Assembly (NCBI RefSeq): GCF_003667825.1
Contig: NZ_CP033043.1
Span: forward strand, 1,303,001 to 1,367,000
Direction of reading: 5' to 3'
DNA: 64,000 nt
DNA from: Metabacillus litoralis
GTDB lineage: Bacteria; Bacillota; Bacilli; Bacillales; Bacillaceae
Below are positions 1-32,575 of this stretch, piece by piece. The position numbers were made by a program, and so were the translations under genes. The notes below the pieces were generated by a model, which was not told the origin of the DNA, did no database searches, and saw nothing but the letters and a program-made list of their open reading frames with translations. Position 1 is the stretch's first letter. Every line of letters starts with the position of its first letter.

Positions 1-620
1 GTGTATCGAGACATAAATCAGCAGAAAGAGCAAAGATGTGTCCCGATTAGGCCAGAATCGAGACAGAAATCAGCAGAAAGAGCAAAGATGTGTCCCGATA
101 AAGCGTGTATCGAGACATAAATCAGCTGTAAGAGCAAAGATGTGTCCCAATAAAGCGTGTATCGAGACAGAAATCAGCAGAAAGAGCAAAGATGTGTCTC
201 GATAAAGCGTGTATCGAGACAGAAATCAGCTGTAGGAGTTAATATGTGTCCCGATAAAGCGAGAATCGAGACAGAAATCAGCAGAAAGAGCAAAGATGTG
301 TCCAGATAACGCGGGTATCGAGACAAAAATCAGCTGCAAGGGCTAAGTTGTGTCCCGATAAAGCGAGAATCGAGACAAAAATCAGCAGAAAGAGCAAAGA
401 TGTGTCCAGATAACGCGGTAATCGAGACAAAAATCAGCAGAAAGAGCAAAGATGTGTCCAGATAACGCGGGTATCGAGACAAAAATCAGCTGTAAAAGCA
501 ATTTTGCGTCCCGATAAAGCGAGAATTGAGACAAAAATCAGCTGCAAACGCAAACTTGTGTCCCCCATTAACTCAAAATCGAGACAAAAGTTCTGCTCTG
601 TACCCCATTTCAGCAAACTA
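1..620. repeat. 52-bp tandem repeat array A (about 12 units)
   Basis: Units recur with ATCGAGACA starting at 5, 57, 109, 161, 213, 265, 317, 369, 421, 473 and 525, an exact 52-bp period, with a decayed last unit near 578. Each unit is a 45-bp segment bounded by 10-bp inverted arms (TATCGAGACA ... TGTCTCGATA is perfect at 160-204; most copies have one mismatch, TGTCCCGATA) followed by a 7-bp spacer such as AAGCGTG. The window opens inside a spacer, so the array probably continues to the left. The short open frames in it are products of the repeat, not genes. Positions 600-661 hold nothing recognisable. Confidence 0.95.
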
Positions 621-661
621 AGCCAATCAACCCCCTAACTCCTGGTCCGTGCCGGTTACAA

Positions 662-1127
662 CTAATCCCTCAAAGCTTCCTTCAAAACACCTATCGCATT
701 TATTACTTCTTCCATATTTCGCTTACTATTCATATTGTTCCTAGCATGAAGAAGAACCGGTCTAACCGACTCGACAGAACTCATAGCGTGGAACCATCCA
801 TGTGTGAAAATGGTGAGTTGTATCTTCGTTATAAAAATAATAAACATGCTCTATTCCTAATGTTTCTCTTTGAGCCTTTCTGATTTTGGATAAAACAGTG
901 ATATAATCGATTCTTTCTTCCTCGGTTAATTCATCTAAGCACTTAATATGTCGCTTAGATGCCAAAATGACTAATCCTTTTATCGGGTAGGCAACATCTT
1001 GATGTGCATGAAAGAATTCTGTTTCAATCACAATACCGCCCTCAGGCTCAATTAATCCACTTGTTAAGGCACAACTTAAGCATTCAACTTCTACGGTGTT
1101 TCCGTTGGATAGAGTTATTTTTCTCAT
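662..1127 (-). pseudogene. HIT (histidine triad) family protein, frameshifted
   Basis: The first frame (1127 down to about 780) encodes a HIT-like nucleotide-binding hydrolase domain with the triad motif HHFHTW near residue 109, followed by MVPRYE. Family members continue past this point into a helical tail. Here the frame runs into a stop after RYEFCRVG, and the expected tail (SSVESVRPVLLHARNN ... LKEALRD) appears in another frame ending at 662. A small indel near 776-790 therefore splits the gene. The start has a good ribosome binding site (GAGGGAGAACACA-ATG). The triad itself is intact, so a shortened product might still fold; sequencing error is an alternative. The gene is monocistronic and divergent from the peroxidase operon. 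Confidence 0.75.
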
Positions 1128-1305
1128 TGTGTTCTCCCTCTAAGTTAAATGATCTTCTATGTACATACCACAAGTAAATATATAACAAGCCTCCCATTAA
1201 ATAAACATCTTTTTCGAAAATCATTCCTCCCAAAAATACAAACATAAGCCCCCTCTTTTCTTATCCAAACAAAACAATATCATTGAAAGAACAAACTAAA
1301 TCTGG

Positions 1306-1320
1306 TACGATTTAATCGCA
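1306..1320 (+). promoter_or_regulatory. Putative OhrR operator upstream of gpx-ohrR
   Basis: TACGATTTAATCGCA is a near-perfect inverted repeat (TACGATT / AATCGCA) that resembles the known OhrR box (TACAATT-AATTGTA type). It lies about 30 bp before the peroxidase start, where a repressor would block the promoter. The linked regulator is OhrR-like, so autoregulation is inferred. Confidence 0.6.
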
Positions 1321-1351
1321 CACGATTTATATATACGAGGAGGAAATCAAG

Positions 1352-1828
1352 ATGAACACAGTATTTGATTTCACAGTTAAAAAACCAAACGGTGACACAA
1401 AATCTTTAAGTGATTATGAAGGAAAACCTTTACTTATTGTGAATACTGCAAGTAAATGCGGTTTAACGAATCAATTTAGTGGATTGCAAGAGCTTTATGA
1501 GAAATATAACAGTAAGGGCTTGGAGATTTTAGGATTTCCATGTGGTCAATTTAATGATCAGGAGTATGAAAATATTGAAGAAACAACTCAGTTTTGTCAG
1601 CTAAATTACGGTGTATCTTTTCCTATGTTTGCAAAGATCGATGTAAACGGTGATGCTGCTGATCCTCTCTTTTCATTTCTAAAAGAACAAAAGAAAGGCG
1701 TGCTATCCAAAGAAATCAAATGGAATTTCACAAAATTTCTTGTTGATAAGAACGGAAATGTCGTGAAACGCTATGCACCAACAACAGATCCAGCTAAAAT
1801 AGAAAAGGATATTGCTAGCCTATTATAA
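1352..1828 (+). CDS. bsaA: Glutathione peroxidase family thiol peroxidase
   Basis: This is a 158-residue GPx-fold enzyme expected to reduce hydroperoxides in the cytosol, using thioredoxin- or bacillithiol-type thiols rather than glutathione. The peroxidatic cysteine lies in NTASKCGLT (about residue 36). The family motifs LGFPCGQF (about 60-67, with the second, resolving-type Cys) and KWNFTKFLVD (about 130) are present. The length is typical of bacterial homologues. The start follows a strong GAGGAGG site. The gene is 21 bp upstream of an OhrR/MarR regulator in the same direction and has an OhrR-like box in its promoter, so induction by organic peroxide is likely. The symbol follows the B. 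subtilis name. Confidence 0.9.
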   Translation: MNTVFDFTVKKPNGDTKSLSDYEGKPLLIVNTASKCGLTNQFSGLQELYEKYNSKGLEILGFPCGQFNDQEYENIEETTQFCQLNYGVSFPMFAKIDVNGDAADPLFSFLKEQKKGVLSKEIKWNFTKFLVDKNGNVVKRYAPTTDPAKIEKDIASLL

Positions 1829-1849
1829 GTGTTGTGAAGGATGAGTTAG

Positions 1850-2293
1850 TTGAATGATTTTTTAACTTTAGAAAACCAGCTTTGTTTTGCTATTTATGAA
1901 ACAGGCAGCCAGTTTACAAAATTATATACAAAAGCACTAAAGGAATTTGGGGTCACATACCCTCAATATTTAGTGTTATTGGCTTTATGGGAAAAAGACG
2001 GACTTACAGTAAAAGAGCTTGGAGAAAAGTTGAACCTAGGTACCGGTACTTTAACACCAATGGTGAAAAGACTCGAAGCAAATGGCTGGGTTAAAAAAGA
2101 GCGCTCTTCAATAGACGAGAGAAAAGTTAGTATCTATCTTCAAGCTAAAGCAAAAGAAGAAAAAGAAGCCATTTCCGAAAAAATGACAAAAGAAATGGTG
2201 TTGTGCAATATTGAGCTGTCAGAATATGAACAATTAATGAAGAACTTAAAACTTCTTCAACATAAACTAGAAAAACGTAATAAAGGGCTTTAA
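1850..2293 (+). CDS. ohrR: MarR-family organic peroxide sensor, OhrR-like
   Basis: This is a 147-residue winged-helix regulator. The N-terminal segment LENQLCFAIYETG carries the cysteine at about residue 12 that matches the reactive Cys15 of B. subtilis OhrR. The DNA-binding helix region is LTVKELGEKLNLGTGTLTPMVKRLEANGWVKK in outline, followed by the wing SSIDERKV. The start codon is TTG, since the preceding ATG runs straight into a stop. It is co-transcribed with the upstream peroxidase instead of the usual ohrA gene. It is expected to repress this operon and release DNA when the cysteine is oxidised. Confidence 0.85.
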   Translation: MNDFLTLENQLCFAIYETGSQFTKLYTKALKEFGVTYPQYLVLLALWEKDGLTVKELGEKLNLGTGTLTPMVKRLEANGWVKKERSSIDERKVSIYLQAKAKEEKEAISEKMTKEMVLCNIELSEYEQLMKNLKLLQHKLEKRNKGL

Positions 2294-2342
2294 GCAGAAA
2301 ACTCGTCGATTAACGTAGTTGCTCGTATCCCTCATACTTAGA

Positions 2343-2380
2343 ATTGGCAGCTTTGGCCATTCATCGTCATAGCTGCCAAT
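2343..2380. terminator. Inverted repeat between convergent genes
   Basis: A perfect 10-bp inverted repeat (ATTGGCAGCT ... AGCTGCCAAT) lies between the ends of the ohrR-like and LysR genes. It lacks a clear U-tract on either strand, so termination is inferred from its position only. Confidence 0.5.
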
Positions 2381-2384
2381 GTAT

Positions 2385-3260
2385 TTAAATAAAACCTTGA
2401 TAATTTTTTATAAACTCAGTAAAGCTTCTCACTTCGTTTGTTTCTACTTTTGTTACCAAATAGGTTACTGAAACTGGTGGTGAAATTTGATCAGATACGA
2501 TTTCTGATAGAATGTTCTTTTTTAGATCATCCTTCACCATTGAAAATGGTAAATACGAAACGCCTAAGTTATTTTCTATGAATTTTTTTGTTACTTCAAC
2601 TTGATTCACAGTCATTGTACGAATTCTTGGATAATGCTTTTTCACTTCGTTCAACAAGGAATCCCAATAATCAGGATGATTATGTGTGATGAGTCGATAA
2701 TGTGATAAAGCATGCTGCTCATTTCTCAAGCTTCCTGCCCATTCATTTGGACCAACCAAAATAACCGGCTCCTCGTGGATGGCTTCACTTTTTACATTTG
2801 TTTGGACAGGAGTCATTCTTGATAATCCCAAGTCCGCTTTGCTACCACTTATTGCTTCTCCCACCTCATAAGAGTTTACAACGTCTACTATTACTTCAAT
2901 ATCAGGATAACTATTAATAAACTCTCTTAATAACCTAGGTAAAAAAGATGAGGCAATTTGCGGCGCTGTTGCAATGGTTAATTTGCGATGATAGCCCTGC
3001 TTCCATGACTCAAAATGGTCTATTCCTTGTTCATAAGTTGCTAAAAAATCTTTCGCATAAGAAAGAAATTTTTGACCTGCAGAAGTTAAAAAAACAGCTT
3101 TCCCTCTTCTTTCAAATAGGTGTACGTTTAAATGCTCTTCAAGACGTTTTATATGCTTTGTAATGGCTGGTTGAGTGAGAAATAGTTCTTCTGATGCTTG
3201 TCTAAAATTCTCAAACTTCGCACACACAATGAACGTTTTTAACCATCTTATCTCCATCAT
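2385..3260 (-). CDS. LysR-family transcriptional regulator
   Basis: This is a full-length 291-residue LysR protein. The N-terminal HTH (RWLKTFIVCAKFENFRQA..LFLTQPAITKHIKRLE, residues 5-45) is followed by the linker helix and a substrate-binding domain from about residue 90. The HTH is closest in feel to the CitR/CcpC-type group, but this is not secure. The start follows AAGGGGATT. It is divergent from the methyltransferase gene at 3394 across a 133-bp gap, which in this family often means it controls that gene. The inducer is unknown. Confidence 0.85.
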   Translation of the reverse strand: MMEIRWLKTFIVCAKFENFRQASEELFLTQPAITKHIKRLEEHLNVHLFERRGKAVFLTSAGQKFLSYAKDFLATYEQGIDHFESWKQGYHRKLTIATAPQIASSFLPRLLREFINSYPDIEVIVDVVNSYEVGEAISGSKADLGLSRMTPVQTNVKSEAIHEEPVILVGPNEWAGSLRNEQHALSHYRLITHNHPDYWDSLLNEVKKHYPRIRTMTVNQVEVTKKFIENNLGVSYLPFSMVKDDLKKNILSEIVSDQISPPVSVTYLVTKVETNEVRSFTEFIKNYQGFI

Positions 3261-3393
3261 AATCCCCTTATAACGAACCGTTATTAAAATTTTCCATTTT
3301 TGTTAATTTTAATTATAACTTTTATCCCCTATAATTCAATTACGTATTACAGATTTCTAGACTTATAGGTTGTTATAAAAAGGAGGATTTATC

Positions 3394-4164
3394 ATGAAGC
3401 AAGTTGTAAAGGATATGTGGGACGCACATTTATATGATGGAAAACATTCGTTTGTATCAGAGTTTGGTCATGACTTAATTAACATGTTATCTCCTAAAAA
3501 AGGAGAAAGAATTCTGGATATTGGCTGCGGAACAGGTGATTTGGCAGATAAGCTATTTCAATATGAGGTAGATGTGACGGGTATTGATAAGTCCGAGAAT
3601 ATGATCAATCAAGCATGTATGAAATACCCACATATACGTTTTATGGCCAAAGATGTTTTAGAAATGGAATATAACAATTCATTTGATGCCATTTTTTCTA
3701 ACGCAACTCTACATTGGATAAAAGAGCAGCAACAAGCACTTTCTCGGATATATACTAGTTTAAAGCCTGGAGGTAGATTTGTTGCAGAGTTTGGAGGAAA
3801 AGGCAATGTTCAAAAAATTACGGATGAAATCATCAATGCATTTCAACTTGCTGATATTGACTTTAACATGAAGCAATTCCCCTGGTATTTTCCGAGTGTA
3901 GGAGAATACACCTCATTAATGGAAAGAGTTGGATTTCATGTAACATTTGCTTGTCATTTTGATCGCCCAACTCCTTTAGATGAAGAAAGCGGCTTAAGGG
4001 ATTGGATCACGATGTTTGCGGGGGAAATGTTTAAGAATCAAAACGAATATGAAAAAGAGCGATTAATTAAACATGTAGAAAATAATCTAAGGGAATCTCT
4101 CTATCAAGATGGTTGTTGGATCGCAGATTATAAAAGAATTCGAGTTATTGGGATCAAGGAATAA
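3394..4164 (+). CDS. Class I SAM-dependent methyltransferase
   Basis: This is a 256-residue cytosolic protein with the Rossmann-type methyltransferase core. Motif I is ILDIGCGTGDLADKL (about 42-56), an acidic ribose-binding strand end follows at VTGIDKSENMI, motif II is FDAIFSNATLHWI (about 93-105) and motif III is LKPGGRFVAEFGG. The sequence resembles trans-aconitate or UbiE/Tam-like small-molecule methyltransferases. The substrate cannot be read from the sequence. It has an AAGGAGG start site, is divergent from the LysR gene and ends at a bidirectional terminator. Confidence 0.85.
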   Translation: MKQVVKDMWDAHLYDGKHSFVSEFGHDLINMLSPKKGERILDIGCGTGDLADKLFQYEVDVTGIDKSENMINQACMKYPHIRFMAKDVLEMEYNNSFDAIFSNATLHWIKEQQQALSRIYTSLKPGGRFVAEFGGKGNVQKITDEIINAFQLADIDFNMKQFPWYFPSVGEYTSLMERVGFHVTFACHFDRPTPLDEESGLRDWITMFAGEMFKNQNEYEKERLIKHVENNLRESLYQDGCWIADYKRIRVIGIKE

Positions 4165-4166
4165 GA

Positions 4167-4194
4167 AAAAGAAGAGACTTTGTTCTCTTCTTTT
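4167..4194. terminator. Bidirectional intrinsic terminator
   Basis: AAAAGAAGAGA and TCTCTTCTTTT form an 11-bp stem with U-rich flanks on both strands. It serves the convergent methyltransferase and modA genes. Confidence 0.8.
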
Positions 4195-4202
4195 CTGATA
4201 AG

Positions 4203-4982
4203 TTATAAATTCGAAAATCCATATTCCTCTAGAATCATCAAAGCCTTTTCTGATTTCATATAACTAAAGAAAGTCTTTGCTTCTTCTAAATTTTTACTCT
4301 CATTTATCACACCAATTGGATAAATGATTGGTGTATGTGTCCCTTCTTCTGCTGTTGCAATAACGTTGACTTTGGAAGAAACAAGTGCATCCGTATTGTA
4401 GACGATCCCAGCATCAACATTTCCTGTTTCTACATAGGTTAGTACTTGTCTTACATCTTTGGAATACACAATTTTATTCTCAATGTTTCCCCATTCCCCT
4501 ATTGCTTCAAGCATTTCTTTAGCATATTTTCCTGCAGGGACTGTTTCTGGAATACCGATTGAAATCTTATTTGCTTTTTCTTTTAAATCACTAAACGATC
4601 CGATCTTTTTCTGACTTTCTATAGGTGTTACTAAAACAAGTTTATTACTAACCAAATCAACCGCATTTTCTTCATCAATGAGCCCTTTTTTCACCAGTTC
4701 ATCAAACTTATCCTCTGCTGCTGAAAAAAATAAGTCCGCTGGTGCACCTTGCAAGATTTGTTGTTGTAATGTTCCGGAGCTTCCAAAATTAAACGTAACT
4801 TTGATGTTTGGATGCTCTTTCTCGAACTGACTTTTGATTTCATTCAGTGCATCTGTTAAGCTAGCGGCAGCAGAAACGGTTATCTCCACAACTTCCTGTG
4901 AATCTCCTTTTGTATCTTGTGCTGATGAGCTACACCCAGCTAAACAGGATAGAAAAACAAATAGTATAAATAGCTTTTTCAA
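4203..4982 (-). CDS. modA: Molybdate ABC transporter substrate-binding lipoprotein
   Basis: This is a 259-residue extracytoplasmic lipoprotein. The signal peptide LKKLFILFVFLSCLAGC ends in a lipobox. The mature part shows ModA family blocks: VSAAASLTDAL, NFGSSGTLQQQILQGAPADLFFSAA and GNVDAGIVYNTDA. The TTG at 4982 is the better start because AAGGAGAGAG sits 5 bp upstream; the in-frame ATG at 5018 would put this site inside the gene. No modB permease or modC ATPase gene adjoins it, so it is an orphan in this window and would need partners encoded elsewhere. Binding of molybdate or tungstate is inferred from family. Confidence 0.88.
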   Translation of the reverse strand: MKKLFILFVFLSCLAGCSSSAQDTKGDSQEVVEITVSAAASLTDALNEIKSQFEKEHPNIKVTFNFGSSGTLQQQILQGAPADLFFSAAEDKFDELVKKGLIDEENAVDLVSNKLVLVTPIESQKKIGSFSDLKEKANKISIGIPETVPAGKYAKEMLEAIGEWGNIENKIVYSKDVRQVLTYVETGNVDAGIVYNTDALVSSKVNVIATAEEGTHTPIIYPIGVINESKNLEEAKTFFSYMKSEKALMILEEYGFSNL

Positions 4983-5096
4983 GATGACTCTCTCTCCTTG
5001 ATATTTTTCATCATACAATCCATTTTAACTAATTGTCTTGGATATGTAATGAAAAACATCACACCTTATCAGATGTTTCTTAAAAGATTCACAATT

Positions 5097-5690
5097 TTAA
5101 TAATAAGAAGATGTATTTTTAGACATTTTCAGAAAAATATTTGTTATTAGTTTGGAGAAAAGAAAAATCAAGCAATAGCCTATGAAAAGATAAAAATAAT
5201 TCGCCCATTTATGAAGGAGAAAAAAATTGTGCATGACTAGTATCGGCTTACAAATAAATGACAAAAAGAGTGCTAAGACAATAGTGTACAAATAGAAGTT
5301 TTTATTATGATTTAATGTCCATTGGTAAACTAGAATAAACAGCACTGGTACTAGTGCAGTGTCTAAGGATAGATTACCTGGCACATAAGGAGTGAGTTCA
5401 TAAGGATATCCCCATAATCCCTGTTTATTTCCCCACGTATCTACTATTCCAAACCATACATTTATATTAAAACCATAAAACCCTAAGAGAAACATTTTTT
5501 TTCGATCAATAACAAAATATAATACTAATAATGGAGTCAAAAACATCAACAAAAATATCACCCAAAATTGCCAAGATTGAAAATTTGAATATTGGTGCCA
5601 ATATTCAACCCTTAAATCTGTAACATCCTTCATCAAAGAGTTTATTTTTTCATAAGCTTCCATTTGTTGTTGATCCATATTAATTTTCAA
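5097..5690 (-). CDS. CBO0543-like multi-pass membrane protein
   Basis: This is a 197-residue protein with a short charged N-terminus and about five membrane segments (roughly 43-61, 67-82, 108-126, 130-148 and 160-185). The block GIVDTWGNKQGLWGYPYELTPYVP between segments is typical of the CBO0543 family of uncharacterised Firmicute membrane proteins. No catalytic motif is visible and no function is proposed. It stands alone between modA and the propeller gene. Confidence 0.7.
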   Translation of the reverse strand: MKINMDQQQMEAYEKINSLMKDVTDLRVEYWHQYSNFQSWQFWVIFLLMFLTPLLVLYFVIDRKKMFLLGFYGFNINVWFGIVDTWGNKQGLWGYPYELTPYVPGNLSLDTALVPVLFILVYQWTLNHNKNFYLYTIVLALFLSFICKPILVMHNFFLLHKWANYFYLFIGYCLIFLFSKLITNIFLKMSKNTSSYY

Positions 5691-5799
5691 TCATAACACT
5701 CCACTCATCGTCATTGTTTCTATTTTTTGTTAAAAACAAGAAATAAATGCAAGAGTGGAAAAAAACTTTTTCATAGCAATCCTACCCTGTAGCTGAAAC

Positions 5800-7017
5800 T
5801 TACTCTATAAAGAAAACAGGTGCAGAATCAACATTTTTCAGCCATATTTCTTCTTTACTATCTAACCCCTTTTTCATCCAAACATCACCATGTGATTCCT
5901 CTGTTGATGCTTTACGAACCCAAGTGATATAAGAAGAAACCGCTTGAGGATCTATATCAAGCTCATTACTTCTCGGATTAGTTAATTGATATTGCTCGTT
6001 TGTTTTTAACGAAATCAGATAAAGAGCTGTTTTCATTGTAGGAACTGGTCCTTCCTCCCACTCTTTATTTTCTTTAGCACGAGCAACGATCATTTTTTCA
6101 GAAGAGTACCATTCTAAGTCAAGATCGACAAAACCTTTAGGTGTGTATTCTCTTTGGTTTGTAGAGGTAGGCATCTCTTTTATTTTGAGATTCTTGTTTT
6201 CTACGAAGAATCTCCCTTCTCCAGAAATATAAGCTAACTGTTCAGAAGCTGGAGCCCACTTCACCCAATCCGGATATCCTAGCATTTTCCCAACCTGTTG
6301 AAATTGTTCTCCTTGCTCGGAAAGTACACATAAAGTGTTACTGTCCATCGACCAGGACGCAGTTGGTACGCCTATAAAGCTTACCCATTTCCCATCATAA
6401 CTCCACTTAAAATAATCAGCATAAATGAAAAATAAATCAGGAACTTTTGTTTTAATCGTATAAAATGCTTTGATTTTATTTGAGTTTAGCTTTGCATCAA
6501 TAGGAATTCTAAATAGCTGTACTGGACCCCATCCTGTAGGAAGTAAGTTGGCTTGCGAAGAAACAATAAATTCTGTTCCATTTGGAAACCATTCAAAGCC
6601 GTTTACACCTAATGCGACATTTTCAAAACCGTGCGGGCGACTATTCTTCATTTTCGTTACATTTAACACGCCGCCAGAAGTATAGGCTAATTGATTGTTA
6701 ATTGGTGACCATTTAAAATCTGATGTTTCGACGACGACGTAAGGCTTGTAATTCTCTTTCTTTTTCATATCATAGATAAATAAATTTGATGCCTCGCCAA
6801 GCTTTTCACTTTTCAGATAAGCTAAAAATTGACCATCATGTGACCATTGAGGTGAATTTACATAGCCCTCATTTGTAAGCTGTATTTCTTGGTCACCGTT
6901 TTTGATCCACAGTTGATGGTCTCTAATAAATGCTGCTTTTAGTGGTATTTCAGCACTGGCAATCGTTGAAAAAAGAATACAGTTGAAAATAAGTAAAAAC
7001 AAAATTCGAAATCCCAT
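5800..7017 (-). CDS. Secreted TolB-like beta-propeller protein
   Basis: This is a 405-residue protein with an N-terminal signal peptide (about residues 1-22, ending TIASA). It then has repeated TolB/WD40-like blades, seen as recurring patterns such as SPQWSHDGQFLAYLKS, FKWSPINNQLAYTS, FEWFPNGTEFIVSS, FKWSYDGKWVSFIG and VKWAPASEQLAYIS. It is likely a cell-surface or extracellular binding protein with no catalytic motif. A terminator (7074-7102) separates it from the ECF sigma operon upstream, so it has its own promoter, though proximity leaves open that it is a sigma target. Confidence 0.75.
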   Translation of the reverse strand: MGFRILFLLIFNCILFSTIASAEIPLKAAFIRDHQLWIKNGDQEIQLTNEGYVNSPQWSHDGQFLAYLKSEKLGEASNLFIYDMKKKENYKPYVVVETSDFKWSPINNQLAYTSGGVLNVTKMKNSRPHGFENVALGVNGFEWFPNGTEFIVSSQANLLPTGWGPVQLFRIPIDAKLNSNKIKAFYTIKTKVPDLFFIYADYFKWSYDGKWVSFIGVPTASWSMDSNTLCVLSEQGEQFQQVGKMLGYPDWVKWAPASEQLAYISGEGRFFVENKNLKIKEMPTSTNQREYTPKGFVDLDLEWYSSEKMIVARAKENKEWEEGPVPTMKTALYLISLKTNEQYQLTNPRSNELDIDPQAVSSYITWVRKASTEESHGDVWMKKGLDSKEEIWLKNVDSAPVFFIE

Positions 7018-7073
7018 GACGACTCCCTCCTTTTTAGTAGGTTGTCCTAATCAAGTTTGAGAATTCGTATAAG

Positions 7074-7102
7074 AAAAAACAGCAAGGGGGTTATCCTTAC
7101 TG
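7074..7102 (-). terminator. Intrinsic terminator of the ECF sigma operon
   Basis: On the minus strand CAGTAAGG-ATAACCC-CCTTGCTG is followed by a run of six T. It lies just after the 78-codon gene. Confidence 0.75.
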
Positions 7103-7119
7103 TCTGTTTGATCATTCTC

Positions 7120-7356
7120 TCAAATAAAGAATATAGGTGTTATAAACACAACGAGTAGCAAAATAAACGGATATAACACAAGTCGTGTGATGGAATATCC
7201 TTTAATATTAAGTAGATCTATTGGACTTTTTGCAGGTGCATAAATCCAGTTTGCTATACGATCTACCTTACTTTTTTTAAAGGGGATGTCAGGTACTTTC
7301 ACATGAAATTCTTCCAAACGTTTTTGAAGCTCCTTTGGAATCTCGTTTCTACTCAT
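7120..7356 (-). CDS. Small membrane protein, possible anti-sigma factor
   Basis: This is a 78-residue protein with a soluble charged N-terminal half and a single C-terminal membrane helix (about 55-77). Its start overlaps the end of the ECF sigma gene by 4 bp, which suggests translational coupling. The position right after an ECF sigma gene and the topology (cytoplasmic N-terminus, membrane anchor) fit an anti-sigma role. There is no recognisable zinc-binding anti-sigma motif and it is short for the class. The function is inferred from context only. Confidence 0.5.
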   Translation of the reverse strand: MSRNEIPKELQKRLEEFHVKVPDIPFKKSKVDRIANWIYAPAKSPIDLLNIKGYSITRLVLYPFILLLVVFITPIFFI

Positions 7357-7877
7357 TCTTTTACCTCCAATATAACCTTTAATTTTTTCAAAGATGTATG
7401 CAGTCTTGATTTTACAGTACCTATTGGAATCTCAAGAATTTTAGAGATCTCCTTTTGTGTTTGATCGTGGTAATAGGTTAAGAGAATAACGGCACGTTGA
7501 TCATCGGGGAGCTGTTGAATGGCTGATTGAATCGTTAGTTTATCTTCTAGTGGTAATTCATGCTGGTCGTTTTGATGATATAAAAATGGCAAAAGCTTTT
7601 TAAAGCGACTTCGACGTTTCAGACGATTAATCATAATTTGATACGCCATACGAAATAAAAAGGTTTTTACACTAGATTTACTCTCGTCAAACGTTTCATG
7701 ATATTTATGAAACCTTATAAACGTATCCTGCACAATATCAATGCTAAGTTGTTCATCTTGACAATATCGATAAACGAATTGATAGATTGAAGGTTTATAG
7801 ATAACAAATAATTCCTCGATCGATTGTTCATCATGCTTTCCGTCATCAGCATATGAGAAATCTTTATTTAAACTCAT
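7353..7877 (-). CDS. ECF-type RNA polymerase sigma factor
   Basis: This is a 174-residue group 4 sigma factor. Region 2 covers about residues 18-90 (YKPSIYQFVYRYCQDEQLSIDIVQDTFIRFHK, then KTFLFRMAYQIMINRLKRR). Region 4 covers about 110-168 (IQQLPDDQRAVILLTYYHDQTQKEISKILEIPIGTVKSRLHTSLKKLK in outline). It overlaps the preceding membrane protein gene by 14 bp and the following small gene by 4 bp, so the three form a tight operon. The specific ECF subgroup and stimulus are not clear. Confidence 0.88.
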   Translation of the reverse strand: MSLNKDFSYADDGKHDEQSIEELFVIYKPSIYQFVYRYCQDEQLSIDIVQDTFIRFHKYHETFDESKSSVKTFLFRMAYQIMINRLKRRSRFKKLLPFLYHQNDQHELPLEDKLTIQSAIQQLPDDQRAVILLTYYHDQTQKEISKILEIPIGTVKSRLHTSLKKLKVILEVKE

Positions 7878-14744: not shown

Positions 14745-14832
14745 TATTCCTTTGGAAACTCAGCCACCATAGGTTTCCCCGTAGGTCTGTAGCTTTGCGT
14801 CATCATTTTTCAATGATTTTGCCTTTTCAGTG
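14745..14832 (-). ncRNA. c-di-GMP-I (GEMM) riboswitch
   Basis: The minus strand reads GGCAAAATCATTG, then GACGCAAAGCTACAGACC, then ACGGGGAAACCTATGGTGG and CTGAGTTTCC. These are the conserved GEMM-I elements: the GGCAAA start, the ACGCAAAGC internal loop and the GAAA tetraloop with its receptor side. A long hairpin follows (TTCCAAAGGAATAAC / GGTTATTTCCATTTGGAA), whose left arm overlaps the aptamer 3' end, a plausible expression platform. It precedes the GGDEF-EAL gene by about 80 bp. Confidence 0.88.
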
Positions 14833-15020
14833 AATTTTTTTTAATTATTTCATTTATTTTATCATGTTTACCTTGTAAAAAATAGTCCTTTTTAACTATG
14901 AGAATCGTTTTGTGGAACGTTATGTCGAACATGCATGGAAATGGTTCCAATTTCATAAAGACAGGGCTTTCAAAAATGACTATACTTCTTTTACAACTAT
15001 TATTTCGAGGTGAACACAGA

Positions 15021-24522: not shown

Positions 24523-24819
24523 TTATGTGAGTGAAAAATACTGATACCGCATTTTCCTTTGTTGGTTTTCCTTGCTAGCTTTAAAGACAACAGCTACGAT
24601 GACTAATAAAATGAATAGCACAGCAATCAGAATCATGTCTGAAACTCGATTATTTTTTTTATTTGTATAAAGAACTGGTTTCGGGAGTTCCGAAGTAGTT
24701 GGTTTGTGAACGACTAATCTACGATAAGAAATAACTCCAATGATCATGAGCAAAACAAATAAAACGATAACAAGAACCCATTGAATACCTTTTGGAACTT
24801 GAGGATGGTGATTCATCAT
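24523..24819 (-). CDS. Small two-helix membrane protein
   Basis: This is a 98-residue protein with membrane helices at about 13-32 and 60-79 and short charged loops (RRLVVHKPTTSELPKPVLYTNKK in outline). It has an AAGGGGG-type site upstream and its own terminator. No family is recognised. It follows the YjcZ paralogue. Confidence 0.55.
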   Translation of the reverse strand: MMNHHPQVPKGIQWVLVIVLFVLLMIIGVISYRRLVVHKPTTSELPKPVLYTNKKNNRVSDMILIAVLFILLVIVAVVFKASKENQQRKMRYQYFSLT

Positions 24820-24942
24820 GTTTTCTTCCCCCTTCTTATGTAAAGGGTCCTTCTCTGCAGCACGGTATGACTAATATGTTAGATTGTTTACTGTAATATA
24901 TGATGGAAATGGTTATTATGTATAGACGATGCTTTAAATAAA

Positions 24943-24973
24943 GCAGAAAGACTCCTATATAGGAGCCTTCTGC
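24943..24973 (-). terminator. Intrinsic terminator of the YjcZ paralogue
   Basis: GCAGAAGGCTCCT and AGGAGTCTTTCTGC pair on the minus strand, followed by TTTATTT. Confidence 0.85.
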
Positions 24974-24998
24974 ATAAAATCCGTTCATTTTTCTAGTC

Positions 24999-25154
24999 TT
25001 AGAACCAAGGAGTTCCGTATCCGTAACCACCGTAACCATATCCTCCGTCAACATAACCACCTGTTGTGTAGCTAGCTCCAACAATGATTAGAAGGATAAA
25101 CAAAACAACAATCAGTGCAAAGCCTGCACCATAACCGCCTACTGCTTCACTCAT
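24999..25154 (-). CDS. YjcZ-family small protein
   Basis: This is a 51-residue protein, [19 protein letters not shown] onward, with the same hydrophobic core as the 9167 gene and a longer glycine/tyrosine tail (GGYGYGGYGYGTPWF). It has a GGAGGTGAAGG site just before the ATG. It belongs to the YjcZ/TIGR01732 family, small membrane proteins found in spore formers. Confidence 0.9.
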   Translation of the reverse strand: MSEAVGGYGAGFALIVVLFILLIIVGASYTTGGYVDGGYGYGGYGYGTPWF

Positions 25155-25537
25155 TTACCTTCACCTCCCAAACTTCTCAATTCTCATAGTATGTTGCACG
25201 AATAAATTCGTTTGGGCATTTTGATTATTTTTTTAAATGGATTGAATAACTGGGCTTATTCCTATTGTGAATTCCCTGAAATTTGTAATTGTGATGCCTA
25301 TCTTTGTCTTTTTGAAATACTTTAGAAACGGAAAAGTGTAAGCGGTTTCTGGTGTGTAGTTTAGCATTTCAATGGTCATGCAAGCATAAATAACTTTTTA
25401 ATATCATTTTCCGTGAAATCATCTTAAATTAATATTGGTTTAATCTCATTTTGAGATATATAATGATACCAAGAAGTTCAAGAAAGGGTTACAAAGCATA
25501 ACCATCTCGCTACTTCTTTACATAAGGAGGATGTCAA
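25155..25537. other. Intergenic region and leader of the 48-codon gene
   Basis: No gene is visible. From about 25400 the sequence closely matches the leader of the second 48-codon gene (from about 31820), including TTGGTTTAATCTCATTTTGA and a TATAAT (25451-25460 region) that make a likely promoter (18-bp spacer). The element ATCTCATTTTGAGAT inside the spacer is a palindrome that could bind a regulator. Confidence 0.6.
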
Positions 25538-25684
25538 ATGAGCCAACAAGTTAGAGATTTCAAAGTGAATGATTTACTAAAAAAACACAAATTTAACGAA
25601 AAAGAAATTGCTGAAATGGATGATTCACAAATTGAATATTTTCACTGGCTCTACTTCGAAGATTCTGTTTACGACTATATGTAA
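25538..25684 (+). CDS. 48-residue acidic protein, copy 1
   Basis: The product starts MSQQVRDFKVNDLLKKHKFN and ends EDSVYDYM. It has a basic first half and an acidic, aromatic second half (DDSQIEYFHWLYF), probably two helices. The start follows AAGGAGG. It resembles BH0509-type small Bacillus proteins in size and feel only. A second copy at 31954-32100 differs at one residue (V5 to A). Both are followed by the same terminator and then by a 52-bp repeat array. Confidence 0.8.
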   Translation: MSQQVRDFKVNDLLKKHKFNEKEIAEMDDSQIEYFHWLYFEDSVYDYM

Positions 25685-25706
25685 GTATTACTATATAAAA
25701 TAGTTA

Positions 25707-25738
25707 AGCTATTGTGCTTGTGGCACAATAGCTTTTTT
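25707..25738 (+). terminator. Intrinsic terminator after 48-codon gene copy 1
   Basis: AGCTATTGTGC and GCACAATAGCT form a perfect 11-bp stem followed by TTTTTT. Confidence 0.9.
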
Positions 25739-25770
25739 AGTAGTTAAATTTATAAGTTTTGGTCCTTAAT

Positions 25771-25950
25771 GGGTTGTTAGTCATCATCGGGGTTATGAAG
25801 ACTGTTAGTGTGAGATTTTATTGGGTTGTTGGTCATCATCGGGGTTATGAAGACTGTTAGAGTGAGATTTTATTGGGTTGTTGGTCATCATCGGGGTTAT
25901 GAAGACTGTTAGAGTGAGATTTTATTGGGTTGTTGGTCATCATCGGGGTT
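25771..25950. repeat. 52-bp tandem repeat array B1 (3 units)
   Basis: ATGAAGACT recurs at 25795, 25847 and 25899 and GGGTTGTTGGTC at 25823, 25875 and 25927, an exact 52-bp period. The arms are decayed (ATGAAGACTG against TGGTCATCAT, 7 of 10 paired), but the 45 + 7 layout holds (spacer CGGGGTT at 25840-25846). It runs straight into array B2. Confidence 0.92.
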
Positions 25951-26356
25951 ATGAACGACAATCCGAGCTCGATTCTCCCCCAAAATGTCGTTCATCTACC
26001 TTATGAACGACAATCTACGCTCGATTCTACTCCCAAATGTCGTTCATCCACCTTATGAACGACAATCCAAGCTTGATTCTAGCCCCAAATGTCGTTCATC
26101 CACCTTATGAACGACAATCCAAGCTTGATTCTCCCCCAAAATGTCGTTCATCCACCTTATGAACGACAATCCAAGCTCGATTCTAGCCCAAAATGTCGTT
26201 CATCTACCTTATGAACGACAATCCACGCTCGATTCTACTCCCAAATGTCGTTCATCCACCTTATGAACGACAATCCGAGCTCGATTCTCCCCCCAAATGT
26301 CGTTCATCCACCTATGAACAACAATACAAGCTTAATCCACTCCACTTTTGTCGTTA
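25951..26356. repeat. 52-bp tandem repeat array B2 (8 units)
   Basis: ATGAACGACA recurs at 25951, 26003, 26055, 26107, 26159, 26211 and 26263, with a last decayed unit at 26314. Each 45-bp body ends in TGTCGTTCAT, a perfect 10-bp inverted partner, then a 7-bp spacer (CTACCTT or CCACCTT). The body centre holds a variable inner palindrome (CGAGCTCG or CAAGCTTG in different units). Some changes keep the pairing. Confidence 0.95.
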
Positions 26357-26372
26357 TCACCATTTGATGGGT

Positions 26373-26436
26373 GGGACAAGGAACCTGTCCCCACGGCCCA
26401 CCCACGGCCCACCCAAGCACACGGCCCACCCACGGC
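26373..26436. repeat. GGGACA palindrome and short CACGGCCCACC repeats
   Basis: GGGACAAGGAACCTGTCCCC (26373-26392) is one of four related palindromes in the window. It is followed by four copies of an ACGGCCCACC-type short repeat up to the end of the pectin enzyme gene. Confidence 0.75.
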
Positions 26437-26439
26437 CAA

Positions 26440-29400
26440 TTAGTTCATCAATTCTTCTGTAAATTGAATAAGATAGTTTGCTTGATCTGTTGTTAGTTCT
26501 TTTTCTGTTTTAGCTTTCACATGGTTGATAAATGCATTTAATTGTCCATTTCTTGCTTTTGTATTATTTTTTTCGTCTGACTTTTTAGCAGCTTCTATTT
26601 TTGTAAGATATGGTTGGAGATTAGCTTCTTCTCCGTTTTCTTTGAGAAATTGTTGTGTTAAGTTTGCTAAGCTATCATAATCTACTACGACTTTTATAGA
26701 AATGGAACTGTTTGTTTTGTTTCCGGCTAGGTCAATTGCTTCAGCAGTAAACTCATGATTTCCTACTCCTAGTTGATAGGCAGGCTGTGAGTTCTCTTTA
26801 CAGGTAGAAGATTCTATACCTGATAGAGCATCAACAGCTTCACAAGTGACGGTTATTTCTTGATCGATGCCAAATTCTGTTCCATCTTCAAGGTTAAAGG
26901 TAATGATTGGTGAAGTTGTGTCAAGGTTTATTGCTACTTCTTTCATGTCTTCAACATTACCTGCTGCATCCTCACTCCAATAGTGAATGATATGCTTGCC
27001 GTCGTCTTGAATTGTTACCGATGTTCCAGTTTGTTCGGAGCCGTTATTTACTTTATAGTAGGTATTCTCTACTTCAGTCTCATTGTCAACTGCAGTAAGC
27101 TTAATTTGAACAGCTTCATTGTACCAATTGTTCTGAGCTTCTCCAATAATTTCATGGGTTGTTTCAGGTGCGTTTTCATCTTTTTTCTCAGCAGATACTA
27201 AATAGATATTAGGTGTTGGTGGTTCTTCCATTCCTTCACCAATATAAAAACTAGGGTGTGGCGGTTGGTTGTAGCCAACATTTTGCCATGCGATCGATTG
27301 TCGATATTGAGCATCATGCATGAGAGTATAGATTTTATGATCCGTTACAGCTGTTGTTGTATACAGGCGTAAGGCACTGCTGTCTTCTGTTCTCCAAATG
27401 GCTTCTTCTCTCCAGTCACCTAAAAGATCAGCCTGTAAAGAAGGAGTACCCTTTGTTGAGTTATTTGAGTAAGTACCTTCAGCAAGTAATAGATTTTCAA
27501 GTTTTTTGTCTTCATAATTCCATTTTGCAATTGTTCCGGTTCCTACACCTTTATTGGCATCCCATTTATGATCGAGCAATTCTCGTAAAAGATCTCCATC
27601 CCACCAAATACCGAAGTTTGAAGATGGAATATTTTCTGAGATTTTTTCACCAGTAGCTGAATACAATCCACCAGTTGTACTATTCCATTCACCTGAAATG
27701 GCCCAAGCTTCAGCGCCCTCATAATTAGGATCAATATCAGCAGTCATACCACGGCCTGTATCTTCACCAGTTTGTACTCCCCAGATGAATTCACCCGTTT
27801 CTGCATCACGAAGATCAAAGCCATATTTCGCATTCTTATTTTCTTGAACAGAGAAAATTTCAAGTCCCGGTCTATTAGGGTCTAAATCACTAACATGAAG
27901 CGCGTCACCATGACCTAATCCTGAGTTATAAAGGCCAGAGCCGTCATCATCAATCGTTATTTGACCATAAACAATCTCATCTTTTCCATCATGATCAACA
28001 TCAGCTACACTTAAGCTATGATAGCCTTGACCAGCCCAGCTACTATAGCCTTCGTTATTTGTATCAAATGTCCATTCTTTTGTTAGCTTACTATCTCTAA
28101 AGTTATAAGCTGTTACAACGGTTCTAGTGTAATAGCCTCTTGCCATAATAAGACTAGGTTTTTCACCGTCAAGATACGCTACTCCAGCAAGGAAACGATC
28201 GACACGGTTGCCATAGGAATCACCCCAAGATGCAACATCACCGCGTTGTGGGTCATAATCTGTCGTTACAAGTTCCTTACCTGTTTCACCCTCAAATACG
28301 GTGAGATACTCTGAGCCTTGAAGGATATAACCTGATGAATTTCGATGATCCGCGTCTTTCTTACCAATGACGTTTCCTTGACCATCCACTGTTCCATCGG
28401 CCGTTTTAAAGGCAATCTCTGCTTTACCATTTCCATCAAAATCGTAAACGATAAACTGAGTATAATGAGCACCTGCGCGAATATTTTTACCAAGATCTAT
28501 TCTCCACAGTCTTTTGCCATCCAACTTGTATGCATCGATATACACGTTACCAGTGTATCCAGCTTGCGAGTTGTCTTTTGCGTTTGATGGATTCCATTTT
28601 ACAATGGTTTCATACTCGCCATCGCCATCAAGATCTCCAACACTTGCATCATTTGCAGAATACGTGTAAGGATCTCCTAATGGAGTAACACCATCCTTTG
28701 GCTTATCAAGTGGAATGTCTAAGAAGTTATTGCTTAACACATTTGTGCGATCTTTTGTTTTCTTTTCTTTCCCATCTAAAACTGCCCTTACCTCATAAAC
28801 ATCATTTACGCTTCCTTCTTTGTCAACAAAGTTTGTGCTATCTGAAATAGGTGAAGAATTCATTTTTTCATTATTACGATAGAGATTGAATGACACATCT
28901 TTAGGGTCTGTGCCTAATAATCTCCAACCTAGATAAACGCCTTCGTCCGTTTTAACAGCTACTAGACCTCGATCAATTGTTTCCATTTGTCTTTTTAAAA
29001 CTGTAACTGCCGGTGTTTCAAGGCTTTCAGATTTTTCGGAGATTCCACCGGCATTAACTGCTGCAACTTTGTAGTAATACTTAATAGTGGTTAAAACCGT
29101 TTTATCTGTATATTTCGACTCACTTGTTTTCCCAACTAATTGATATGTGCCATCTTTCTTTTCAGATCGATACACATTATATGTTTTTGCTCCTTCCGTT
29201 TTATCCCAGCTAAATGTAAGATCGTTTTTATTCACATCTCCAAGCTTAAGATTAACAGGTGCATTTGGAACAGAAACAGATGGGTCAATCATTGATACAG
29301 CTAATGGCATAGAAGGAACAGTTTCAACATTGGCACGATCAATCGTCGTAATTGTGTACTCATAGTCCATTCCAACATCGATGCTAGTATCTTTGTATGA

Positions 29401-31524
29401 ATTCGTTGCCGATGTATCAATAAGCTCTATTTCATTAGTTCCAGCAACTTTTCGGTAAATATTATACTTTGCTGCATCTTCTACAGCTTTCCATGATAGA
29501 GAAACAGACGGATTTTCAGGGTCAATTATTACTTCTTCAGCCTTCAATTCTGATGGTGCAAGTAAAATTGGCGTAAGCTCAAGACCATTGGCAATGCCTG
29601 TTGATCCTTTGAAATTTACATTCATTTGACCATCTGTTACAGAAACATCAGAAAACACCTTCGAGGTATAATTTCGACTTGGAGCATTTACAGGACCAAG
29701 ATCTTTCCCTTCGATTGATACGTCTGTTCTAGCACTTCCAAGGAAATCAGCGACATGAACCTTTACAGCATACAATCCATTTGGTACATCCACTTTGAAT
29801 TCCCAGCCATTGTTAAAATATCCTAGCCAATCACGCGTTACATCTCGAAGTGGTGTATCTCCATCTCCACGGTCACGTGTAATCATACCTGTGTTATCTT
29901 TAATGCCATATCCTCTTTCTTCGGTATATACAGTATTAAGATCAACATTCGTATACCCTTCAGCAACAGGACTACCAACTGGTCCGAAGTCAAACTTTAA
30001 GTTTGCTTCTTTTGTTTTAATTTCAACAACATCTGAACGCTCGGACTCTCCTTTTCCGTTTACAGCAACCACTTGCAGATGATAGGTTTTTCCTTCATCC
30101 ATACCTGATAAGCTGATTCTAGGAATAGTTGAGGTACCAGCTAAAACATAATTTTCTTCAGTTGAGAGTTTACGATAAATTTTATAAATATCGGTATTCT
30201 CTACTTCATCCCATGTTAACACTGCCCCGGCATTACTGATGCTGTTTGCTGTTACACCAGTAGGTTTGTTTGGAACATTTGCTGGAAGCTCAACATCTGT
30301 TACATATGAAGCTAGCGGACTACTTAACTCTTTAATTCCAGACGATAGAAGGCGTGCAATTTGAATCGCTCCATACTCCTGGAAGTGCGTATTATCTTGT
30401 GAGCCATTTGGAAATGCTTGATAAATTCCTGGTTCTGTATGAAGGAATACAGAAAGAGTCCCAATAGGTCCAATAGAGTCATAATATTCACGGCTAAGTG
30501 TACTTAAATCAACCAACTCTACGTCTAGTTCTGCTGCCACTTCTTTCATACCTTCTACATATTCAGGAAAACTCACATTGAAAATGCCAGTATCTGGATT
30601 GAAATCACGTCGGCCAACAGGTGTAACTAAGATTGGAGTGGCACCACGTTGGCGGGCTCCATTGATATAGGTTTTTAAGTAATTTTTATAATCCGGAACT
30701 GATGCATATCGCTCAGGTCTGCTGATCGTTGCATCGTTATGTCCAAATTGAATAAGAAAATAATCATCAGGACGGATTTTCGTCAAAATATTATCTAATC
30801 TTCCTTCGAAAATAAACGACTTAGAACTTCTTCCTCCAATCGCATGATTGTCGAATAGAATGTCATCATTAAAGTAGCGTGGAATCATCTGACCCCAACC
30901 TGCTTCAGGCTTCCAATATTCATCATATGTTTGAACAGTAGAATCACCTGCAATATAGACGGTAGGCTTATCACCTGCTTCACGTTTAGCAAGCTTTTTA
31001 ATAACAAGGCCATTAATTTTTGGATTACTTCCAGTTAACTCAACATTTAATTGTCCATCTACTAAAGCAATTGAAAAGCTGCGGTCTATAAATTCCCCTG
31101 CTGCAACAGGTGTATCCTGAACCTTTTGTATGATTTCAGCTTTCACACCTATATTAGTAGCTTCCTTCGAATCTCCGGCAATAACGGAAACAGTATAATC
31201 TCCATTTGGTAAATCTACATTAAAACTTGTTTCTTGTGTTGAAATGAAATCGGACTGTAAAGCATCAGAAGTGCCATTATCTCCTGAAACGACCTTGGAT
31301 GGATCTTGAAAACCATATCCAATTTCCTCGCTATAAGAGGACTCCTCTGAAACCTTGCTATATCCATCTTTTACCGCACTTGATGAGGTTCCAAAATCAA
31401 ATTTTTTCGTTACTACATTTTCCTCTGCCTTTGCAGCTTGAAAACTAATAGGAAAATTAGATAATACTAGCATGGCACTTAATAAGATTGCAGCCTGCTT
31501 CCTACCTCTTCTCTTACCTTTCAT
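26440..31524 (-). CDS. Secreted rhamnogalacturonan acetylesterase / PL11 rhamnogalacturonan lyase fusion
   Basis: This is a 1694-residue exported pectin enzyme. The signal peptide is about 1-34. A beta domain (35-180, FDFGTSSSAVKDGYSKV) precedes an SGNH esterase (about 185-405: YIAGDSTVQTYD, IGGRSSKSF, FGHNDA, DNTHFQEYG), like CE12 acetylesterases. FN3 (about 415-505), a second FDFG beta domain (510-650) and two more FN3 domains lead to a PL11 propeller (about 850-1430: IDRGLVAVKTDEGVYLGWRLL, GDLDGDGEYETIVKW, DFDGNGKAEIAFKTADGT, ADLLGDWREEAIWRTED). Ig-like/OmpL47-type domains and a helical FIVAR-like tail close it. It should remove acetyl groups and cleave the rhamnogalacturonan I backbone. 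No LPXTG sorting signal is seen. It is monocistronic. Confidence 0.93.
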   Translation of the reverse strand: MKGKRRGRKQAAILLSAMLVLSNFPISFQAAKAEENVVTKKFDFGTSSSAVKDGYSKVSEESSYSEEIGYGFQDPSKVVSGDNGTSDALQSDFISTQETSFNVDLPNGDYTVSVIAGDSKEATNIGVKAEIIQKVQDTPVAAGEFIDRSFSIALVDGQLNVELTGSNPKINGLVIKKLAKREAGDKPTVYIAGDSTVQTYDEYWKPEAGWGQMIPRYFNDDILFDNHAIGGRSSKSFIFEGRLDNILTKIRPDDYFLIQFGHNDATISRPERYASVPDYKNYLKTYINGARQRGATPILVTPVGRRDFNPDTGIFNVSFPEYVEGMKEVAAELDVELVDLSTLSREYYDSIGPIGTLSVFLHTEPGIYQAFPNGSQDNTHFQEYGAIQIARLLSSGIKELSSPLASYVTDVELPANVPNKPTGVTANSISNAGAVLTWDEVENTDIYKIYRKLSTEENYVLAGTSTIPRISLSGMDEGKTYHLQVVAVNGKGESERSDVVEIKTKEANLKFDFGPVGSPVAEGYTNVDLNTVYTEERGYGIKDNTGMITRDRGDGDTPLRDVTRDWLGYFNNGWEFKVDVPNGLYAVKVHVADFLGSARTDVSIEGKDLGPVNAPSRNYTSKVFSDVSVTDGQMNVNFKGSTGIANGLELTPILLAPSELKAEEVIIDPENPSVSLSWKAVEDAAKYNIYRKVAGTNEIELIDTSATNSYKDTSIDVGMDYEYTITTIDRANVETVPSMPLAVSMIDPSVSVPNAPVNLKLGDVNKNDLTFSWDKTEGAKTYNVYRSEKKDGTYQLVGKTSESKYTDKTVLTTIKYYYKVAAVNAGGISEKSESLETPAVTVLKRQMETIDRGLVAVKTDEGVYLGWRLLGTDPKDVSFNLYRNNEKMNSSPISDSTNFVDKEGSVNDVYEVRAVLDGKEKKTKDRTNVLSNNFLDIPLDKPKDGVTPLGDPYTYSANDASVGDLDGDGEYETIVKWNPSNAKDNSQAGYTGNVYIDAYKLDGKRLWRIDLGKNIRAGAHYTQFIVYDFDGNGKAEIAFKTADGTVDGQGNVIGKKDADHRNSSGYILQGSEYLTVFEGETGKELVTTDYDPQRGDVASWGDSYGNRVDRFLAGVAYLDGEKPSLIMARGYYTRTVVTAYNFRDSKLTKEWTFDTNNEGYSSWAGQGYHSLSVADVDHDGKDEIVYGQITIDDDGSGLYNSGLGHGDALHVSDLDPNRPGLEIFSVQENKNAKYGFDLRDAETGEFIWGVQTGEDTGRGMTADIDPNYEGAEAWAISGEWNSTTGGLYSATGEKISENIPSSNFGIWWDGDLLRELLDHKWDANKGVGTGTIAKWNYEDKKLENLLLAEGTYSNNSTKGTPSLQADLLGDWREEAIWRTEDSSALRLYTTTAVTDHKIYTLMHDAQYRQSIAWQNVGYNQPPHPSFYIGEGMEEPPTPNIYLVSAEKKDENAPETTHEIIGEAQNNWYNEAVQIKLTAVDNETEVENTYYKVNNGSEQTGTSVTIQDDGKHIIHYWSEDAAGNVEDMKEVAINLDTTSPIITFNLEDGTEFGIDQEITVTCEAVDALSGIESSTCKENSQPAYQLGVGNHEFTAEAIDLAGNKTNSSISIKVVVDYDSLANLTQQFLKENGEEANLQPYLTKIEAAKKSDEKNNTKARNGQLNAFINHVKAKTEKELTTDQANYLIQFTEELMN

Positions 31525-31953
31525 AATTTCACTACCTTTCGTTATTGAAAATAGTCGCCTTATGCCTTGTCGTGATGAACGTATCCCTCCCTTTATTCCA
31601 TTTTGAAAACCCTTACAATTTTACATGATAGATGTTGTCAGAATTTTAAGATATATAAATTTCAGACATTCTCGTTTAAAAAACAGATATGATTTTTATG
31701 TAGTTCTTTATACCTCCCTATATTTCGCTGTATTGTAAATCCTTTTTCTTGGTAACTTTGAAAATATCATGACAAAAGGCTGATTAAAAAGTTAAACGTA
31801 TAGGTATTTTGTTTACATCCCTTTTTTATATCATTTTCTGGTAAATCATCTCAAATTAATATTGGTTTAATCTCATTTTGAGATATATAATAAAACCAAG
31901 AAGTTCAGGAAAGGTTTACACAGCGTAACTTCTTTAAATTAGGAGGATGTAAA
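31525..31953. other. Intergenic region between the pectin enzyme and 48-codon gene copy 2
   Basis: It holds the promoter region of the pectin enzyme (minus strand) and, from about 31820, a leader nearly identical to that of 48-codon gene copy 1, with the same ATCTCATTTTGAGAT palindrome and a TATAA(T/A) element. No gene is visible between 31525 and 31800. Confidence 0.6.
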
Positions 31954-32100
31954 ATGAGCCAACAAGCTAGAGATTTCAAAGTGAATGATTTACTAAAAAA
32001 ACATAAATTCAACGAAAAAGAAATTGCTGAAATGGATGATTCACAAATCGAATATTTTCACTGGCTCTACTTTGAAGATTCTGTTTACGATTATATGTAA
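31954..32100 (+). CDS. 48-residue acidic protein, copy 2
   Basis: The product starts MSQQARDFKVNDLLKKHKFN and is the same as copy 1 at 25538 except for alanine at position 5. The leader, ribosome binding site (TAGGAGG) and terminator are also duplicated. The copies lie in direct orientation on either side of the pectin enzyme gene. Most base differences are synonymous or outside the frame, which supports a translated, selected peptide. Function unknown. Confidence 0.8.
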   Translation: MSQQARDFKVNDLLKKHKFNEKEIAEMDDSQIEYFHWLYFEDSVYDYM

Positions 32101-32122
32101 GTGTTAATATAGTAGATAATGA

Positions 32123-32153
32123 AGCTATTGTGCTCTGGCACAATAGCTTTTTT
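32123..32153 (+). terminator. Intrinsic terminator after 48-codon gene copy 2
   Basis: AGCTATTGTGC and GCACAATAGCT form the same stem as in copy 1, with the loop shortened to TCTG, followed by TTTTTT. Confidence 0.9.
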
Positions 32154-32189
32154 AGTTTTAAATTAATAATTTTGGTCTTTGTTGTGGAT

Positions 32190-32575
32190 ATGAAGACCAT
32201 TTGCGGTGGTATTGATCGGAGTTTTGGTCTTCATCGAGGTTATGAAGACCATTTGCGGTGGTTTTGATCGGAGTTTTGGTCTTCATGAAGGTTATGAAGA
32301 CCATTTGCGGTGGTTTTGATTGGAGTTTTGGTCTTCATTGAGGTTATGAAGACCATTTGTGGTGGTTTTGATCGGAGTTATGGTCTTCATCGAGGTTATG
32401 AAGACCATTTGCGGTGGTATTGATCGGAGTTTTGGTCTTCATGAAGGTTATGAAGACCATTTGCGGTGGTTTTGATTGGAGTTATGGTCTTCATCGAGGT
32501 TATGAAGACCATTTGTGGTGGTTTTGATCGGAGTTATGGTCTTCATCACGGTTATGAAAACCATTAATAGCTGTT
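32190..32575. repeat. 52-bp tandem repeat array C (7 units plus a partial)
   Basis: ATGAAGACCA recurs at 32190, 32242, 32294, 32346, 32398, 32450 and 32502, with a decayed unit at 32554. Each 45-bp body ends in TGGTCTTCAT, a perfect 10-bp inverted partner (for example 32242-32286), followed by 7 bp (CGAGGTT or GAAGGTT). The body centre is ATTTGCGGTGGTTTTGATCG-like. Positions 32580-32777 hold no gene that I can see. Confidence 0.95.

Follow-up and report, generated by a model that had tools for sequence, protein, structure and literature searches.

What keeps the length of a tandem repeat constant when its sequence is free to change? The question was raised by four arrays, A, B1, B2 and C, located in a stretch of 64,000 nucleotides of the Metabacillus litoralis genome (hereafter the window; the genome is a single contig of 5.23 Mb).

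Organisation of the window arrays

A period of 52 was detected by TRF at window positions 5-564, 25766-25955, 25949-26332 and 32170-32565, corresponding to 10.8 copies in A, 3.7 in B1, 7.4 in B2 and 7.6 in C. All four arrays could be parsed into a 10-bp arm, a 25-bp insert, an inverted 10-bp arm and a 7-bp spacer, which bears out the common period of 52 and the 45 + 7 design described in the initial annotation. Array A (4..586, + strand) is built of 52-bp units with TATCGAGACA-class arms; its stem is imperfect (TATCGAGACA versus TGTCCCGATA) and its right end is decaying. Array B1 (25766..25955, - strand) carries the mismatched arms ATGAAGACTG / TGGTCATCAT of the GAC class and meets B2 at a 7-bp spacer, the period being unbroken. 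The arms of B2 (25949..26357, - strand) are ATGAACGACA / TGTCGTTCAT, of the CGA class, and its final spacer is 6 bp instead of 7. Array C (32170..32565, - strand), with arms ATGAAGACCA / TGGTCTTCAT of the GAC class, is decayed at both ends. The strand assigned to B2 and C is the one with the purine-richer sequence (the insert in the case of B2), a weak call in both (0.57 and 0.56, respectively).

The window arrays are non-coding, since they sit between genes called by a simple ORF and hexamer script and 52 is not divisible by three. No Rfam family was matched at any of them at the gathering threshold. Elsewhere in the window, two c-di-GMP-I riboswitches (Rfam RF01051) were found at 14751-14833 (-) and 34454-34533 (-). 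An ORF of 48 aa, of no assigned family, lies upstream of array B (25538..25684, +), and a near-identical second copy upstream of array C (31954..32100, +). A terminator-like hairpin comes after each of them, and the 52-bp array lies beyond it; a Pfam search with one of the two gave no match. Palindromes of the GGGACA...TGTCCC type adjoin array B at about 26370-26437.

Relation to published repeats

Tandem repeats of 52 nt in Bacillus were reportedly first described in J Bacteriol in 2020. In the available part of PMC8161180 (Subirana and Messeguer, IJMS 2021) they are presented as constant in length and variable in sequence, with 176 Bacillus genomes yielding 1886 arrays of 51-53 nt and most species devoid of them; DNA-protein filaments or small RNAs were proposed as their role. 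The four arrays are members of these Bacillaceae satellites, a class already known, and the initial annotation, which knew of no such report, has to be corrected on this point. Among the consensuses in that part of PMC8161180, that of the B. litoralis family 42_52_9 agrees with array L038 of the present genome (46 of 48 defined positions), and the best match for array A is family 77_52_5 (31 of 50 positions). The arrays share with the class a length of 51-53, at least four repeats, inverted signals, a consensus match and a non-coding location; B1 by itself (3.7 copies) is just under four repeats, but it runs on into B2. As in the available text of PMC8161180, length is constant while sequence varies between the arrays of one genome, several families occur per genome, carriers are some Bacillus but not others, and short signals are found together with their reverse within one repeat. 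The 10-25-10-7 layout, the AAA/GAAA insert ends, the placement at convergent gene tails and the growth in place at orthologous sites were not found stated in the same portion of the article.

The period is more widespread than the layout. Each of the 27 consensuses of Table 1 in PMC8161180, as available, was compared with 200 base shuffles: at p < 0.05, nine have significant arms with a loop of 5-9 bp, in six the significant arms are separated by 13-17 bp, and in 12 no arms reach significance. The 45 + 7 design thus holds within the family of the present arrays and does not extend across the published class. To the same repeat class belongs the B. coagulans family 8_52_18, which, in the accessible part of PMC8625621, has a TGTCCTTCAT / ATGAAaGACA dyad and matches its best counterpart among the fetched arrays at 39 of 51 positions. 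The B. coagulans 52-nt repeats are transcribed according to RNA-seq of that species (PMC8161180 and PMC8625621, as far as available).

Two other assignments were considered and rejected. Read along the purine strand, a stem gives way to AAA or to the 7-bp spacer and not to the immediate U run of an intrinsic terminator. CRISPR loci are also regular arrays with dyad arms, in which unique spacers separate constant repeats; here, the 25-bp inserts repeat within each array.

Abundance and distribution

A query made from array B2 gave 42 matches in this genome. The exact CGA-class palindrome TGTCGTTCAT-N7-ATGAACGACA occurred 131 times and its reversed control 0 times, which excludes chance. TRF detected 52-bp arrays in two of 20 evenly spaced 20-kb stretches (L025 and L026), so the arrays are distributed genome-wide. 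Another 20 stretches, picked from the B2-query matches, were also parsed, and in all 26 arrays were parsed in this genome (the four of the window and those in the stretches read).

Of the 80 genomes of the family, 15 matched a broader palindrome pattern, eight of them at least six times. In the genome_contigs scan at least 120 stretches matched. Those among the matches listed came from Bacillus and related genera, the lone exception being one single match in Thiohalocapsa, and an array was confirmed by the parser at 101 of the 120 loci listed. Viral contigs scanned with the pattern gave 0 matches. A second intergenic tandem family, with a period of 154, was observed at window positions 47866-48523 and at 14942-15607 of L026 (4.3 copies, 95% and 89% match); its unit contains a hairpin and then a T run.

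Constancy of length and divergence of the inserts

The proposal that a conserved length is combined with free sequence, and the 45/7 layout itself, were evaluated by a scan of this and related genomes. Many more arrays lie in this genome, and from it and its relatives 141 were retained without a spacing filter, each with at least six arms having at most one mismatch to one of eight listed arms. The modal insert was 25 bp in 134 of them, 24 bp in four, 26 bp in two and 13 bp in one. The modal spacer was 7 bp in 141 of 141; since the loci from G002, G003, G007, G018, G022 and genome_contigs had been fetched with patterns that fix this spacer, only the 25-bp insert is an independent result outside this genome. 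Individual gaps measured exactly 25 bp in 905 of 991 cases and exactly 7 bp in 919 of 966. In contrast to the lengths, identity between arrays in the core of the insert, taken as positions 14-32 in 177 block consensuses, was 0.329, compared with 0.281 expected from composition. Unit length is therefore kept though the insert sequence is near saturation, as the initial annotation had supposed. A constant length with a free sequence is a rare signature.

Arm classes and shared insert ends

The arms fall into the classes ATGAACGACA (CGA), ATGAAGACCA and ATGATGACCA (GAC), ATGAAGGACA (GGA), ATGAAGAACA (GAA) and TATCGGGACA / TATCGAGACA. The purine-rich strand was compared in 65 array consensuses of six genomes and in a further 89 taken from the genome_contigs loci listed. 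Common to them were AAA at insert positions 1-3, an A-rich GAAA end and a spacer near AAGGGNG. Sorting by purine content aids this alignment, yet it does not force AAA at both ends. Because the arm classes and insert ends are shared across genera, the arrays are better described as one family with fast-changing inserts than as the "unrelated" families of the initial annotation.

The two arms of a module co-vary: pairing in the variable core was 0.898, against 0.663 with shuffled partners (maximum of 2000 shuffles, 0.718). Pairing exceeded within-array shuffles for both the 25-bp and the 7-bp loop (z 10.4 and 8.5), the better-paired partner lying across the 25 bp in 166 cases and across the 7 bp in 147. 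Switches between the CGA and GAC classes occurred 14 times across the 7-bp spacer and once across the 25-bp insert; several are orthologous, and the independent sites number about 10 versus 1. This location of the switches indicates that the 45-bp module is kept whole. The left arms of the G018 arrays L074-L081 are consistently of another class than the right arms, ATGAAGACCA being combined with TGTCCTTCAT or TGTTCTTCAT. These fixed stem mismatches show that full pairing is not required.

Turnover at orthologous sites

The flanks of orthologous arrays were 82-98% identical, and the best insert identity between units ranged from 0.52 to 1.00 across 15 orthologous pairs. At the L037 site, whose flanks are 88-94% identical between genomes, one 45-bp module is present in G002, two in G007 and 11 in the present genome (G000), from which it follows that arrays grow in place by whole units. 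At the L040 site, which has a mixed start, CGA units were expanded in G000 and GAC units in G007. Single sites thus show arrays growing where one or two modules stood, the unit type that expanded differing between species.

Compensatory arm change was considered for L040 / L071 / L102 and rejected: all three species hold both arm classes with a different one expanded, so the difference reflects differential amplification. The sole site that still resembles arm replacement is L035 / L068, where the G002 array is also of the GAC class. L035 could not be taken as a clean empty site, as at least seven relatives without the array also lack the neighbouring 303-aa gene.

Position relative to genes

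The arrays are intergenic, with a preference for places where gene tails converge and an avoidance of divergent promoters. When both neighbours were called, these were convergent for 20 of 63 arrays and for 19 of 220 control gaps, and divergent for 3 of 63 and 53 of 220, respectively. Similar values were obtained in other genera among the matches listed (convergent, 28 of 78 versus 30 of 299 control gaps; divergent, 5 of 78 versus 84 of 299). The counts rely on script gene calls, and they are not independent, since both array sets include orthologous or same-genome arrays, each counted. As raw counts for 32 arrays from G000, G002 and G007, 21 had a terminator-like site separating the stop codon from the array and three had one beyond the array.

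With tandem neighbours, the purine strand was the sense strand in 28 cases of the first set and the opposite one in 10. This bias vanished in other genera among the matches listed (23 same and 21 opposite), and a general sense-strand orientation was rejected. At arrays between convergent genes, the purine-rich strand as deposited was '-' in 35 and '+' in 11, in a tally that counts orthologous arrays several times; the sign is expected to be arbitrary.

Nature of the constraint

The possible explanations were ranked as follows: a constraint on the DNA, a functionless expanding repeat, and an RNA. Our best guess, held tentatively and at somewhat less than an even chance, is that spacing is constrained at the level of double-stranded DNA and that the arrays would form nucleoprotein structures at gene tails. 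The unit, in which a 25-bp insert and the inverted 10-bp arms on either side of it make up a 45-bp module and a 7-bp spacer completes the 52 bp, would offer two dyads at fixed spacing. The 52 bp correspond to about five helical turns, in agreement with an earlier suggestion, and all units would be placed on one helix face, which roughly phased A-tracts may help to maintain. A putative dimeric or architectural protein could bind the array as a regular structure, although we know of no protein that binds it. The DNA level is favoured because an exact length of 25 bp would be needless for a free RNA linker. With provisional wedge tables, consensus units were predicted to be more curved than their block-permuted versions in 41 of 55 and 65 of 72 cases by an AA-wedge model, but in no more than 31 of 55 and 47 of 72 by the BMHT model, a slight excess that counts against this reading; the curvature peak near a period of 52-53 in both models is given by the helical repeat. 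Arm covariation does not discriminate, since a dyad DNA site, a hairpin and template-switch correction fit it equally. Against a DNA-level constraint, a single genome contains arms of more than one class, which is difficult to reconcile with one sequence-specific protein; the strand asymmetry of the insert (AAA / GAAA ends) is left unexplained by a symmetric site; many 52-nt families in the available part of PMC8161180 lack the 7/25 arms; and the B. coagulans repeats are transcribed, as the accessible text of PMC8161180 and PMC8625621 reports.

More speculatively, and with a rather low probability, the arrays may be the DNA component of a bacterial satellite-chromatin system that has so far escaped recognition, in which dyads repeated every five turns on one helix face would recruit a dedicated protein that polymerises or bridges DNA at gene tails. 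If so, selection would act on spacing, arm symmetry and A-tract phase only while the sequence turns over. Finding a protein would, for the first time, give bacterial satellites a role. The sites with 1, 2 and 11 modules and the 10-25-10-7 layout, with its conserved AAA and GAAA ends and its 45-bp module intact at junctions, are concrete starting points for tests of binding and deletion.

Alternatively, although we consider it less likely, a selfish, hairpin-forming 52-bp unit may spread and expand through slippage during replication, through unequal exchange and through template switching, with no host function, arm symmetry being maintained through palindrome correction. The fast local turnover at the L037 site, the different unit types expanded at L040, a location where harm is least and the patchy presence in the family (at least six pattern matches in only eight of 80 genomes) are all in line with such a repeat. 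Copying alone, however, would hardly explain why the insert, nearly saturated in sequence, is 25 bp long in 134 of the 141 arrays, or why published families in the available part of PMC8161180 keep the same 52 bp with arms elsewhere or none. In addition, the viral contigs scanned contained no match. Less probable again is an RNA function, in which transcribed arrays would form a string of 10-bp hairpins with 7-nt or 25-nt loops, acting as a sponge or a source of small RNAs. Folding was far below shuffles on both strands (z of -13.1 and -13.8 for B2, -6.6 for A and -13.6 for L029), but this is expected for any inverted repeat. The purine-rich insert strand with AAA and GAAA ends across genera, an asymmetry not anticipated for a symmetric DNA site, the 28 versus 10 sense orientation of the first set and the B. 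coagulans transcription (PMC8161180 and PMC8625621, as available) speak for RNA; the loss of that orientation in other genera, the terminator-like sites located before rather than after the arrays and the lack of an Rfam match at the window arrays speak against it, as does the exact 25 bp. Arm mismatches comprised 178 G-T and 185 A-C among 10320 cells, and this lack of a wobble preference disfavours an RNA stem, as one formed from a single strand should favour G-U. Of the two options originally offered for the conserved period, an array of hairpins or five helical turns per unit for protein binding, the five turns agree with the unit length and a hairpin acting as RNA is weakened.

A relation to RAYT, a Y1 transposase, appears very improbable. 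REP/BIME elements are intergenic palindromes arrayed near gene ends and are associated with RAYT. The 52-bp arrays are placed alike, but form strict tandems and lack the RAYT linkage. Y1_Tnp (PF01797) was present in seven of the eight genomes in which the pattern matched at least six times, compared with 26 of the 72 others, an association confounded by kinship. Arrays occur in G066, where Y1 gave no match, and the idea that the arrays are cognate repeats of RAYT was largely refuted by the flank test, in which 20 of 20 fetched Y1 loci were devoid of 52-bp arrays. A different repeat, GGGAC...GTCCC palindromes, flanks the Y1 gene at seven of these 20 loci (L229, L230, L233, L234, L237, L239 and L244), and these palindromes look like the cognate repeats of the RAYT-like Y1 genes of relatives.
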